A stretch of 33,950 nt of DNA from an uncultured Clostridia bacterium (GTDB taxonomy: Bacteria > Bacillota > Clostridia > Christensenellales > Borkfalkiaceae): the NCBI GenBank assembly GCA_945917475.1, contig CAMEHL010000005.1, forward strand, positions 1-33,950, given 5' to 3'. The position numbers were made by a program, and so were the translations under genes. Shown here in pieces: positions 6,197-10,477 of this stretch; position 1 is the stretch's first letter, and the number at the start of each line of letters is the position of its first letter. Below the pieces are notes generated by a model. The model saw nothing but the letters and a program-made list of their open reading frames with translations. It was not told where the DNA came from and did no database searches.

Positions 6197-6214
6197 TAAA
6201 AACGAAAATAAGAT

Positions 6215-6362
6215 AAATATCCGGTAGGTAAGGCTACCATAGGGATACGGATTGCTACCGCGAAGTAGTGGAGACACTATAAGAAGGTCAAGAGATTTCG
6301 TCGAAACCAAGGCGTAATTTAACGCAGTTACACCGCCCTACGGAGTTAAAGCCAGCATGGTC
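6215..6362 (+). ncRNA. M-box (ykoK leader) Mg2+ riboswitch
   Basis: Diagnostic 'GGTAGGTAAGGCTACCATAGGGATACG...GCTACCGC...AAGGCGTAATTTAACGCAGTTACACCGCCCTACGGAGTTAAAGCCAGCA', directly upstream of mgtE. Confidence 0.93.
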
Positions 6363-6401
6363 GTTTCTTCGCGCGCCGCGCGGGGATTTGCTTTTACGTC
6401 T

Positions 6402-6445: not shown

Positions 6446-7822
6446 GTGTTTACAGAACCGAAAGAATCGTTCGACGAACTCTACGACTGTTTTAAATCGA
6501 GAAAATTCGCGGATTTGAGAATACGGCTCCTTGATATGGAGCCGGTCGACATAGCCGACTTTATGGAAGAACGTCTCGACGAGACCGATCAACTGCTTTT
6601 TTTCAGGCTTCTGCCCAAAGAACTCGCTTCCGACGTATTCGTGGAAATCGATTCAGACACGCAGGAAGAACTAATAAAAAAGTTCACGGATAAAGAACTT
6701 AAAGCGGTTATCGACGATATGTTTTTAGACGACACCGTGGACATAATAGACGAAATGCCCGCCAACGTCGTCAAAAGAATACTCAAAAACTCCGATCCCG
6801 AAAACCGCAAGCAAATCAACGAACTGTTAGAATATCCCGACGACTCCGCCGGGTCTCTCATGACCACCGAATACGTTTCTCTGTCGGAGAATATGACGGT
6901 TGAGCAGGCTTTCGACAAAATAAGGAAAACGGGGCTTAACAAAGAGACGGTTTACACCTGTTACGTTACCGACGGAAAAAAACACCTTATCGGCGTAATC
7001 ACGGTGAAAACGCTGCTGCTCTCGGACGTAAAAGACGTTATCTCCGACATAATGGACACCAACGTTATCGCCGTAGAAACGCTCGAAGACAAAGAACAGG
7101 TCGCGATGAAATTCTCCGATTACGACTTTCTCGCGCTCCCCGTCGTCGATAAAGAAGGCTGTATCGTCGGTATCGTTACCGTCGACGACGCCGTAGACGT
7201 CTTAAAAGAAGAAGCCACCGAAGATATTCAGAAAATGGCGGCTATCGTTCCGAACGAAAAACCGTATTTAAAACAGTCGGTCTGGAGAATATGGAGTATC
7301 CGCATACCTTGGCTTTTAGTGCTTATGATTTCCGCCACGTTTACGGGCATTATCATAAACTCTTACGAGGGCAGGCTTAACCTTATAAGCCCCCTGCTGT
7401 TCGCCTGTATCCCTATGCTTATGGACACGGGCGGCAATGCGGGAAGCCAGGCTTCCGTTACCGTTATCCGCTCTCTCGCGCTCGACGAATTGCAGACGAA
7501 AGACGTCTTTAAGGTGTTATGGAAAGAAATAAGGGTTTCCGTCCTGCTCGCGGCAACGCTTGCCGCAGTATGCTTTGCGAAACTTTTACTTCTCGACAAT
7601 CTCGTGTTCGGCTACGACTATAAACCTATGATATGTCTCGTCGTCTCGCTGTCGCTGTTCGCTACGGTCGTAATCGCCAAACTCGTAGGCTGCTTTTTGC
7701 CGATTATCGCAAAGAAGATAAAACTCGACCCGGCGGTGGTCGCAAGTCCTTTCATAACGACGATAGTAGACGCGCTCTCTTTAATCGTCTATTGCAACGT
7801 GGCAATCGCCCTTTTAACCTGA
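6446..7822 (+). CDS. mgtE: magnesium transporter MgtE
   Basis: 458 aa; MgtE N domain, two CBS domains, C-terminal TM region 'CIPMLMDTGGNAGSQAS'. Confidence 0.95.
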   Translation: MFTEPKESFDELYDCFKSRKFADLRIRLLDMEPVDIADFMEERLDETDQLLFFRLLPKELASDVFVEIDSDTQEELIKKFTDKELKAVIDDMFLDDTVDIIDEMPANVVKRILKNSDPENRKQINELLEYPDDSAGSLMTTEYVSLSENMTVEQAFDKIRKTGLNKETVYTCYVTDGKKHLIGVITVKTLLLSDVKDVISDIMDTNVIAVETLEDKEQVAMKFSDYDFLALPVVDKEGCIVGIVTVDDAVDVLKEEATEDIQKMAAIVPNEKPYLKQSVWRIWSIRIPWLLVLMISATFTGIIINSYEGRLNLISPLLFACIPMLMDTGGNAGSQASVTVIRSLALDELQTKDVFKVLWKEIRVSVLLAATLAAVCFAKLLLLDNLVFGYDYKPMICLVVSLSLFATVVIAKLVGCFLPIIAKKIKLDPAVVASPFITTIVDALSLIVYCNVAIALLT

Positions 7823-7920: not shown

Positions 7921-7949
7921 TTGATAAATATCTCAAAAAGTGCTACACT
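7921..7949 (+). promoter_or_regulatory. predicted promoter of the structured leader/sRNA
   Basis: TTGATA (7921-7926), 17-nt spacer, TACACT (7944-7949); predicted +1 near 7956, at the 5' end of the P1 stem. Confidence 0.6.
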
Positions 7950-7955
7950 GTATCT

Positions 7956-8154
7956 GCCAAACAAAACTTAATAGATTTTAAAAATGAGTAGACGAAGGAA
8001 TATTTTATTCCTTTTAACCCATACTCCCAATATCTCTATTTGTTAAAATGCAAATTTCGTATATTGGGAGAGTTTACTCACTCTATATAAGTTTTGTTTG
8101 GCGACAACCGAAATTTGCGTTTTAGTGCGTTAACTTCGGTTGGCGCACTTTTTT
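7956..8154 (+). ncRNA. candidate structured RNA / attenuating leader upstream of the methyltransferase gene
   Basis: P1: 7956-7970 with 8088-8102 (15 bp perfect); 7971-7975 with 8082-8086; 7985-7990 with 8075-8080; hairpin 7995-8002/8006-8013; hairpin 8024-8033/8061-8070; terminator at the 3' end. Confidence 0.65.
8125..8154 (+). terminator. intrinsic terminator with cUUCGg tetraloop
   Basis: GTGCGTTAAC-TTCG-GTTGGCGCAC (10-bp stem with two G-U pairs) followed by TTTTTT. Confidence 0.85.
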
Positions 8155-8195
8155 GTTTTAAAGGTGCGACTTTATTATACGAAAGGAGCGCCGAA

Positions 8196-9368
8196 ATGGG
8201 CAAAAACGCAAATTTAAGCAATGCCAAAAACGCAAAGAACGACGAGTTTTACACGCAACTCGCCGACATTGAGAACGAATTAAGGCACTATAAAGCGGAC
8301 TTTTACGGAAAAACCGTTCTCTGCAACTGCGACGACCCGTTTGAAAGCAATTTCTTTAAGTATTTCGCTATGAACTTTAATCATCTGCGATTAAATAAAC
8401 TTATCTGCACGAGTTACGACGATTCGCCCGTCGCATATACACAGTTATCCCTGCTCGACGATATCCCCGACAGAGTTATCCCTAACAGCGTAAGAAAAGC
8501 GTATAAAATAGAAATCACCGAAGTTGACGACTACAACAAAGACGGCGCGGTTGATTTGGCGGACGTTGAGTTTTTGCTTAAAAACGATAAAAACACTTTA
8601 AAACTGTTAAACGGCGACGGCGACTTCCGCTCGTCCGAATGTATAGAACTTTTAATGCAAGCGGATATCGTGGTAACCAATCCCCCGTTTTCGCTTTTCA
8701 GAGAATACGTCGCGCAACTGATAGAATACGACAAAAAGTTTATTATAATAGGCAATATGAACGCCATAACTTACAAAGAAATTTTTCCGTTAATTAAAGA
8801 CGGAAAATTATGGACGGGGTTTTCATTTAATAAGACGGTAGAATTTATTATGTCTGACAGTTATGAGTTAAAAGGAAAAGCGTATATCGACAAGCAAGGA
8901 AGAAAACACGGATTTGTTCCCGCTATAAACTGGTATACGAACGTAGATATAATTAAACGACACGAAGACTTGCCGCTATATAAAAGTTTCTCTCCGCAGG
9001 AATACCCTAAATACGATAATTACGACGCAATCGAAGTAAGCAAAGTTGCCGATATACCTTACGATTACGAAGGTTTTATGGGCGTTCCTATTACTTTTCT
9101 CGACAAGTACAACCCGGAACAGTTTGAAATAATAGGGCTGCTTCAATCGAGCGACGAAAAACTCGCGGGCGTTCCTATTTTGAGAATATATAACGATTTT
9201 AAAGAAATGCGGCAGGATATGACTTTTACGGGCTGTTCGGGCGTAAAGGCAAACGGTAATCCCGTACTTCCGGGAAAATCCCAAAGGGGTAATTTTTTAT
9301 ATAATCCGGACACAAACGAATATGTACATTCCGCTTACGCGAGAATACTGATAAGGAGAAGAAAATAA
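8196..9368 (+). CDS. adenine-specific DNA methyltransferase, M.EcoRI family
   Basis: ATG at 8196 with RBS AAAGGAG; 'NLSNAKNAKNDEFYTQLADIENELRHY', catalytic 'DIVVTNPPFSLFREY'. The ORF-track start at 8094 lies inside the leader RNA. Confidence 0.88.
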   Translation: MGKNANLSNAKNAKNDEFYTQLADIENELRHYKADFYGKTVLCNCDDPFESNFFKYFAMNFNHLRLNKLICTSYDDSPVAYTQLSLLDDIPDRVIPNSVRKAYKIEITEVDDYNKDGAVDLADVEFLLKNDKNTLKLLNGDGDFRSSECIELLMQADIVVTNPPFSLFREYVAQLIEYDKKFIIIGNMNAITYKEIFPLIKDGKLWTGFSFNKTVEFIMSDSYELKGKAYIDKQGRKHGFVPAINWYTNVDIIKRHEDLPLYKSFSPQEYPKYDNYDAIEVSKVADIPYDYEGFMGVPITFLDKYNPEQFEIIGLLQSSDEKLAGVPILRIYNDFKEMRQDMTFTGCSGVKANGNPVLPGKSQRGNFLYNPDTNEYVHSAYARILIRRRK

Positions 9369-10477
9369 TGAAAATCGAACTTCACGAAATTAAAATAGGA
9401 GAAGTGGTAGACGGTTACGTCGACAGTCAGGAAAACGGCGTGGTCGGGTACGGCGGCAAACTCAACATACGCCCCGCGTTTCAGCGCGAGTTCATTTATA
9501 AAGACGTTCAGCGTAACGCCGTTATCGAGACGGTGCTTAAAGGTTTTCCGCTCAACGTTATGTATTGGGTTAAAGACGACAACGGCAATTACGAACTTTT
9601 AGACGGGCAACAGCGCACTGTCAGCATTTGTCAGTACGTTACGGGTGATTTTTCGCTCGATGACCGTTATTTCCACAGCCTTACGAATACGGAACGGAGC
9701 AGCATTCTCGACTATCCCCTTATGATTTACATCTGCTCGGGAAACGATAAAGAAAAACTCGAGTGGTTCAAAACGATAAACATTGCCGGGGTGCGGCTTA
9801 AAAATCAGGAACTCCGTAACGCCGTTTACACAGGCGCATGGCTCTCGGACGCCAAACGCTACTTCTCCAAAATAGGATGCGTTGCGTATCTGCTCGCCAA
9901 CAAATACCTTATCGGCGAAGTGAACAGGCAAGATTATCTCGAAACCGCCCTGTCCTGGATTGCCGCAAAAGAAAATACGGTTATAGAAAAATATATGTCC
10001 GTTCATCAGCACGATTCGCACGCAACGCCGCTCTGGCAATATTTTCAGTCGGTTATCGCCTGGGTGAAGACCATATTCCCCGTTTATCGCAAAGAAATGA
10101 AAGGTTTGCCCTGGGGCATTCTGTATAACGATTACGGCGGCAACGTGTATGACCCGCAGATTATGGAAGAGAAAATCGCAAGTTTAATGCAGGACGACGA
10201 CGTAACCAGACGTTCCGGAATCTACGAATATTTATTGTCGGGGAACGAAAAACATCTCAATATCCGCGCTTTTTCGGACAACGAAAAGCGGCAGGCATAC
10301 GAGCGGCAAGGCGGAATATGTCCCCTTTGCGTCAATGAACACCGCGAAAAAACGCATTACGAAATAGAAGAAATGGAAGCCGACCACGTAACCCCCTGGT
10401 GCGAAGGCGGAAAAACAAACGCGGACAACTGTCAGATGCTTTGCAAAGAGCACAACAGAAGAAAATCGGACAAATGA
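9368..10477 (+). CDS. DUF262 (ParB/Srx-fold) + C-terminal HNH nuclease protein
   Basis: N-terminal 'IRPAFQREFIYKD...ELLDGQQRTVSI' DUF262 signature; C-terminal HNH 'CPLCVNEHREKTHYEIEEMEADHVTPWCEGGKTNADNCQMLCKEHNRRKSDK'; TAATG stop/start overlap with the MTase gene. Confidence 0.88.
   Translation: MKIELHEIKIGEVVDGYVDSQENGVVGYGGKLNIRPAFQREFIYKDVQRNAVIETVLKGFPLNVMYWVKDDNGNYELLDGQQRTVSICQYVTGDFSLDDRYFHSLTNTERSSILDYPLMIYICSGNDKEKLEWFKTINIAGVRLKNQELRNAVYTGAWLSDAKRYFSKIGCVAYLLANKYLIGEVNRQDYLETALSWIAAKENTVIEKYMSVHQHDSHATPLWQYFQSVIAWVKTIFPVYRKEMKGLPWGILYNDYGGNVYDPQIMEEKIASLMQDDDVTRRSGIYEYLLSGNEKHLNIRAFSDNEKRQAYERQGGICPLCVNEHREKTHYEIEEMEADHVTPWCEGGKTNADNCQMLCKEHNRRKSDK

Follow-up and report, generated by a model that had tools for sequence, protein, structure and literature searches.

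A probable family of attenuator-type leader RNAs, absent from Rfam 15, in gut and rumen Clostridia

Upstream of an EcoRI-type adenine methyltransferase gene in the window (the whole 33,950-nt stretch of DNA analysed here, from an uncultured Clostridia bacterium) lies a leader RNA of about 200 nt, at 7956-8154, which has its own promoter and is situated 41 nt 5' of the methylase ATG. The initial annotation had read this leader as a three-state switch, in which formation of a long pseudoknot frees an intrinsic terminator and opening of the pseudoknot favors antitermination, and the locus raises the question of whether such pairings are peculiar to one sequence or are the parts of a regulatory RNA that relatives have kept in front of their own genes. 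The anatomy of the RNA, its conservation, the covariation of its alternative pairings, and its placement before genes were established computationally. In the absence of transcription, probing, or mutational data, we think it probable that the window leader belongs to a new family of cis-acting RNA leaders whose mode of control is transcription attenuation.

Anatomy of the leader in the window

The features of the locus are collected in Table 1. The expected transcription start, at about 7956, is the first base of helix P1, and this register is constant across relatives: of 114 relatives found with the covariance model described below, 86 have a promoter spacer of 17 bp, and in 91 the RNA starts 7 nt past the -10 hexamer. 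The 216-nt leader folds with an energy of -74.9 kcal/mol, against -35.6 kcal/mol for shuffled sequences (z = -9.6).

Table 1. Features of the leader RNA and of the genes behind it (window coordinates; A5 is the alignment of model hits)
Feature	Position	Strand	Details
Sigma-70-type promoter	7921-7949	+	-35 TTGATA 7921-7926, 17-bp spacer, -10 TACACT 7944-7949; read from sequence
P1, 5' strand	7956-7970	+	pairs with 8088-8102; 15 nt, 100% complementary
P1, 3' strand	8088-8102	+	inverted-repeat search
P2, 5' strand	7985-7993	+	pairs with 8072-8080; MFE fold
P2, 3' strand	8072-8080	+	MFE fold
Side hairpin P2a	7994-8014	+	7994-8002/8006-8014; MFE fold; a modelled helix in A5
P3, 5' strand	8024-8033	+	pairs with 8061-8070; 10 nt, 100% complementary; covaries in A5
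P3, 3' strand	8061-8070	+	inverted-repeat search
Apical hairpin P4	8038-8055	+	8038-8043/8050-8055; competitor of pseudoknot; isolated fold, -2.5 kcal/mol in window
Pseudoknot strand A (apical loop)	8044-8059	+	inverted repeat; compensatory rewrites in diverged relatives
Antiterminator, 5' strand	8105-8112	+	pairs with 8135-8142
Pseudoknot strand B (P1-terminator linker)	8109-8124	+	overlap with antiterminator strand at 8109-8112
Intrinsic terminator (T)	8125-8154	+	stem 8125-8134/8139-8148, loop 8135-8138, T-run 8149-8154
Possible second layer (methylase-linked copies only)	8163-8192	+	GGTGC 8163-8167 pairs with GCGCC 8188-8192 across Shine-Dalgarno region
EcoRI-type adenine methyltransferase gene (regulated gene)	8196-9368	+	PF13651, E = 2.2e-138
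Putative restriction endonuclease gene, GmrSD_N + HNH	9368-10477	+	PF03235 4e-18, PF01844 5e-6; PADLOC REase_II 3e-142

An inverted-repeat search recovered both of the long-range pairings on which the three-state reading had been built. The pairing of 8044-8059 with 8109-8124 spans exactly 16 nt, with 15 of 16 positions Watson-Crick and one a U-G wobble, and the perfect 8-nt pairing of 8105-8112 with 8135-8142 is contained in a 15-nt inverted repeat (8101-8115/8132-8146). The mutual exclusions reported for these strands were likewise correct, with pseudoknot and antiterminator competing for 8109-8112 and antiterminator and terminator for 8139-8142; the terminator 3' arm is common to the last two. 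The longest apical-to-linker stem in the window, G-U pairs counted, is 19 bp, against 15 bp, reached once, in 3000 dinucleotide-preserving shuffles. A fourth pairing, P4, had been overlooked; when the 5' domains of relatives were folded alone (MFE), the apical strand sat in a local hairpin in 106 of 113. Some bases, A4 and A6 of P1 and A2 and C3 of the linker among them, are conserved beyond the needs of pairing (P1 positions 4, 6, and 7 and linker positions 2-3), perhaps on account of promoter escape or because a binding site lies there.

Directly 3' of the methylase gene in the window is the GmrSD/HNH gene, and this order is that of a conserved gene pair that occurs with or without the leader RNA; from the sequence, the restriction-modification (RM) pair is inferred to be the unit that the leader controls in the window. 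Further upstream, an M-box (magnesium) riboswitch (6213-6368, 83.8 bits, Rfam) precedes an ORF at 6446-7822 whose position and sequence suggest a magnesium transporter of the MgtE type.

Relatives of the RNA and conservation of its pairings

Upstream regions of methylase homologues were read, and the same RNA was found 5' of five of them (loci L007, L008, L009, L011, and L014) as well as before a diverged homologue (L026), with another such locus (L030) added by the model. This covariance model, R1, was built from five methylase-linked sequences, the window included, and found matches in 87 of the 396 genomes searched from the same order and in 80 of 391 from the class; in a phylum sample of 399 genomes, only the window's own genome gave a match. 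An exact 23-base core pattern found at least 120 matching stretches in GTDB genomes, and the matches listed are mostly from metagenome-assembled genomes of gut and rumen Clostridia. All 80 loci fetched from core-pattern matches score with R1, and the fetching of a further 80 model hits resulted in a total of 195 distinct RNAs.

Many genomes hold several copies of the RNA. A pattern count that allowed two mismatches gave 0-6 copies per genome in 20 genomes (zero for the reversed control), which excludes a high copy number of dozens per genome, and no second copy was present at the DNA level in the window's own genome. Spread by viruses or plasmids found no support in exact matches to IMG/VR (0) or in matches to plasmids (none). 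Two or three copies stand in tandem at L046, L070, L112, L131, L248, L250, and L263, several with their own promoters. An unverified and unannotated record from human faeces labelled 'Bacteriophage sp.' (L282; MT835503.1, 1-4555) carries the RNA, the methylase, and the GmrSD/HNH gene, followed by an ORF for a MATE-like transporter; the record may be a mislabelled bacterial contig.

No Rfam 15 family exceeded its gathering threshold over the window leader, the unrelated M-box being the only one to pass in the window, and no match was obtained at E 0.5 for 12 loci with relatives, diverged members included. The best permissive match over the leader was to a miRNA model and is put down to chance, at 21.5 bits where the threshold is 48. 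A search of the open-access literature, with subscription papers, preprints, figures, and supplements outside its scope, found no matching Clostridia leader RNA; the leader is uncatalogued in the sense that it is absent from Rfam 15 and was not found in the literature text searched. Orphan candidates from two IGR-based ncRNA surveys, of 26 and 50 bacterial genomes (PMC8632094, PMC11109978), are also conserved terminator-bearing leaders with no known ligand, and the text of these papers, figures and supplements excluded, ties no motif to lipoprotein, leucine-rich, or methyltransferase genes.

The helices were evaluated in an alignment, A5, made up of hits from the model and not of core-pattern matches. 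Of the cells of P1, P2, P2a, P3, and T in A5, 91.4% are paired, a share that falls to 35-45% after the partners are slid by 1-3 columns. Changes on both sides occur at 53 of 56 modelled pairs, and the cells so changed number 1191, versus 372 in shuffles. Compensatory changes fall at 15 of the 17 modelled P1 pairs, both sides change at every modelled P2 pair, and the terminator helix is 97.7% paired, with covariation; P2a is missing from short family members. Since A5 was fitted to the model, these helix figures lean towards it.

The pseudoknot was scored in an ungapped 14-nt register in 113 relatives, where real linkers scored 12.0 versus 8.1 for shuffled and 8.6 for reversed linkers. Scores of at least 9/14 were reached by 107 relatives (21% of shuffled linkers) and scores of at least 11 by 84 (1% of shuffles). 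In fixed columns, both pseudoknot arms of the canonical group (linker 23) are nearly invariant, and a canonical linker pairs as well with the apical loop of another member as with its own, so this group says little on compensation; a covariation count in a floating register had overstated the compensatory changes and was replaced by the fixed-column count. As read from the aligned sequences, the compensatory evidence for the predicted pseudoknot is mainly that of the diverged members. In six of these, both arms have been rewritten away from the consensus and still pair, in some cases with small bulges: GTAGATTAGTGTGTC/GACACGCATCTAC in L248, AAAAGCGTATGCCC/GGGCAATACGTTTT in L250, AAAAATGCTTC/GAAGCATTTTT in L263, AAAACACGATCCC/GGGGACGTGTTTT in L270, AACGTATGCTCTC/GAGAGTTACGTT in L272, and CCAAAGCTGCTATCTCTT/AAGAGAGTTAGCGTTTGG in L273. 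For L248, L273, L111, L112, and L250, the RNA's own pseudoknot partner is clearly better than one drawn from the family.

The antiterminator has 8 or 9 of its 9 positions paired in 82 of 90 relatives with linkers of 22-23 nt, and in 43 distinct arm pairs 91% of cells are paired, compared to at most 59% when the arms are slid, with both-side changes at 8 of the 9 positions. The linker dinucleotide after the first C changes with the terminator 3' arm (AA/TTG, TA/TAG, AG/CTG, GA/TCG, and TG/CAG), and the terminator 5' arm usually follows these changes; a strand that covaries with either of two competing partners is what marks a switch. All three pairings recur among the 195 distinct relatives with compensatory changes. 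A fold-back hinge, in which P1 and the inner arm would be of matching length, was also considered and was dropped, there being no positive correlation (r = -0.36).

Genes behind the RNA

An ORF lies downstream in 181 of the 188 copies with enough sequence, its start codon at a median of 22 nt past the terminator, and the orientation of the RNA relative to the next gene is consistent; the remaining seven copies have no gene behind them. The ORF caller takes starts up to 250 nt away, and a few of the downstream ORFs are consequently doubtful. Among 150 downstream proteins, the domains recorded were LRR_5 (20), zinc ribbons (about 9), EcoRI_methylase (8), Listeria-Bacteroides repeats (5), Big_2 (4), collagen (3), DUF898, DUF4236, and others. 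A simple lipobox test is positive for 59 of the 181 downstream proteins, and PADLOC identified few defence proteins among them apart from the methylase. By these domain and motif predictions, the targets are mostly surface proteins and lipoproteins, in a broad regulon that for the most part is not metabolic. The RM pair of the window is a minority target, as most downstream proteins are of other types, and the triggers that the initial annotation had put forward, SAM and phage infection, are left without support because the element is not specific to methylases and mostly precedes surface-protein or lipoprotein genes.

Controller (C) proteins and antisense RNAs of type II RM systems likewise regulate methylase and endonuclease genes, whereas the window has a same-strand leader RNA common to many unrelated non-RM genes and does not qualify as dedicated antisense or C-protein control. 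In Clostridia, c-di-GMP riboswitches (GEMM-I and c-di-GMP-II) control surface and adhesion genes. Their regulon resembles that of the new RNA, but their Rfam models match neither the window leader nor the diverged members.

The element probably represents a new class of leader RNA of the attenuator type, its effector unknown: a common RNA, absent from Rfam, with at least 195 distinct examples and present in about one-fifth of the sampled genomes of the order and class. Its regulon of LRR surface proteins, lipoproteins, collagen-like, Ig-like, and zinc-ribbon proteins, and an RM system suggests that one signal adjusts both surface presentation and the restriction of foreign DNA in uncultured gut bacteria.

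Proposed mechanism and competing explanations

With a terminator 5' of the ORF and a conserved antiterminator that excludes it, the leader has two of the features expected of a transcription attenuator, and its conserved structured 5' domain with covarying helices is what is expected of a riboswitch. As in riboswitches that act by transcription attenuation, the structured leader carries an antiterminator and an intrinsic terminator that exclude each other, and it precedes many genes within a single taxonomic group; it differs from them in having no known ligand or Rfam match and in that its alternative pairing is an unusually long pseudoknot between apical loop and linker.

We propose that RNA polymerase would start at the first base of P1 from a strong promoter, so that regulation falls on elongation, and that the 5' domain would fold as P1-P2-P3 capped by P4. 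The linker emerging after P1 could then pair with the apical loop in a pseudoknot of about 14-16 bp, which can form first because strand B is transcribed ahead of the terminator. As the pseudoknot takes up the antiterminator strand, the terminator would form just 5' of the ribosome-binding site and the gene would be off; were the pseudoknot prevented, the linker would pair with the terminator loop and 3' arm, and the gene would be transcribed. If an effector held P4 in place or masked the apical loop, the antiterminator would be free to form; an effector that stabilises the pseudoknot instead is equally compatible with the data. The core of the three-state reading is supported, in that its exclusive pairings recur in the predicted order ahead of a start codon. 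Its off/on direction, like the action of an effector at the apical loop or the P1-P2 hinge, the identity of that effector, and condition-dependent read-through, is an inference. The isolated-helix energies in the window (pseudoknot duplex -17.2, antiterminator hairpin -14.2, terminator -12.6, and P4 -2.5) offer only a hint that pseudoknot plus terminator may be the default state, since the pseudoknot figure omits loop and geometric costs. Since each of the three pairings is specified to the base, in vitro work on the mechanism and on the search for an effector can begin at once.

As to the effector, a tentative possibility is that gut and rumen Clostridia possess in this RNA a new class of riboswitch, in which a ligand, perhaps a second messenger or a signal tied to the envelope or the community, opens the long apical-loop pseudoknot and thereby controls surface adhesins, lipoproteins, and an RM system. 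The same attenuation could conceivably answer to a protein, an antiterminator that binds the RNA and either holds P4 or keeps the pseudoknot from forming, and this variant remains as plausible a candidate without being established: it would suit the broad, mostly non-metabolic regulon of surface proteins, lipoproteins, and RM genes and the lack of an obvious strictly conserved unpaired ligand pocket, most of the conserved bases lying in two alternative helices, although no candidate RNA-binding protein is linked to the RNA. A conserved short ORF with regulatory codons, as attenuation by a leader peptide would require, was not noticed when the leaders were read by eye.

Switching itself might be absent if the 5' domain merely stabilised the mRNA or insulated the promoter while termination was constitutive and partial. 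The effector is unknown, and the predicted stability of the pseudoknot is so high that termination might be constant; we nevertheless find this improbable, because it would leave without a role a conserved, covarying antiterminator that excludes both terminator and pseudoknot. Similarly improbable is a stand-alone sRNA that acts in trans and only happens to lie upstream of genes, its hairpin being an ordinary sRNA terminator. Possession of its own promoter and terminator, the arrays of two or three units, and the seven of 188 copies without a gene are in keeping with an sRNA, and tandem copies are awkward for a pure leader. The ORFs behind all other copies, at so short a median distance, nonetheless argue for a leader, as does the covariation between antiterminator and terminator 3' arm, for which the terminator of an sRNA has no use. 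A DNA element, whether a mobile repeat bounded by terminal inverted repeats or a palindrome to which a protein binds, could account for the perfect 15-bp terminal inverted repeats of P1 but is mostly refuted by covariation on one strand, the stems differing between copies yet still pairing, and is further opposed by the lack of a second DNA-level copy in the window's genome and by the consistent orientation to the next gene, such that we give it almost no credence.

Attenuation by the leader may be accompanied in the methylase-linked copies by a second, translational layer of control. A hairpin covering the ribosome-binding site was read in the window, L007, L008, L011, L014, and L282 (partners GCGCC/GTACC/GCACC/GCATC), and the conserved GGTGCGACT of these methylase-linked copies has an alternative partner in the freed 3' arm of the terminator (GGTGCG in the window); that the hairpin exerts such control is possible on sequence grounds only. 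A perfect 13-nt complement between 8111-8123 and 8203-8215, at the start of the methylase ORF, was set aside as coincidence, being absent by eye from L007 and other methylase-linked copies. The RNA is kept before the strongly diverged methylase homologues of L026 (1276-2304), which has a catalytic-type motif NPPQ in place of NPPF, and of L030 (1486-2130), which is short (215 aa). Among 14 relatives whose methylase lacks the RNA, four (L006, L015, L016, and L025) have an upstream ORF resembling an XRE-type helix-turn-helix regulator, and integrase-like ORFs lie upstream of the methylase in L010, L012, and L013, which are likewise without the RNA.
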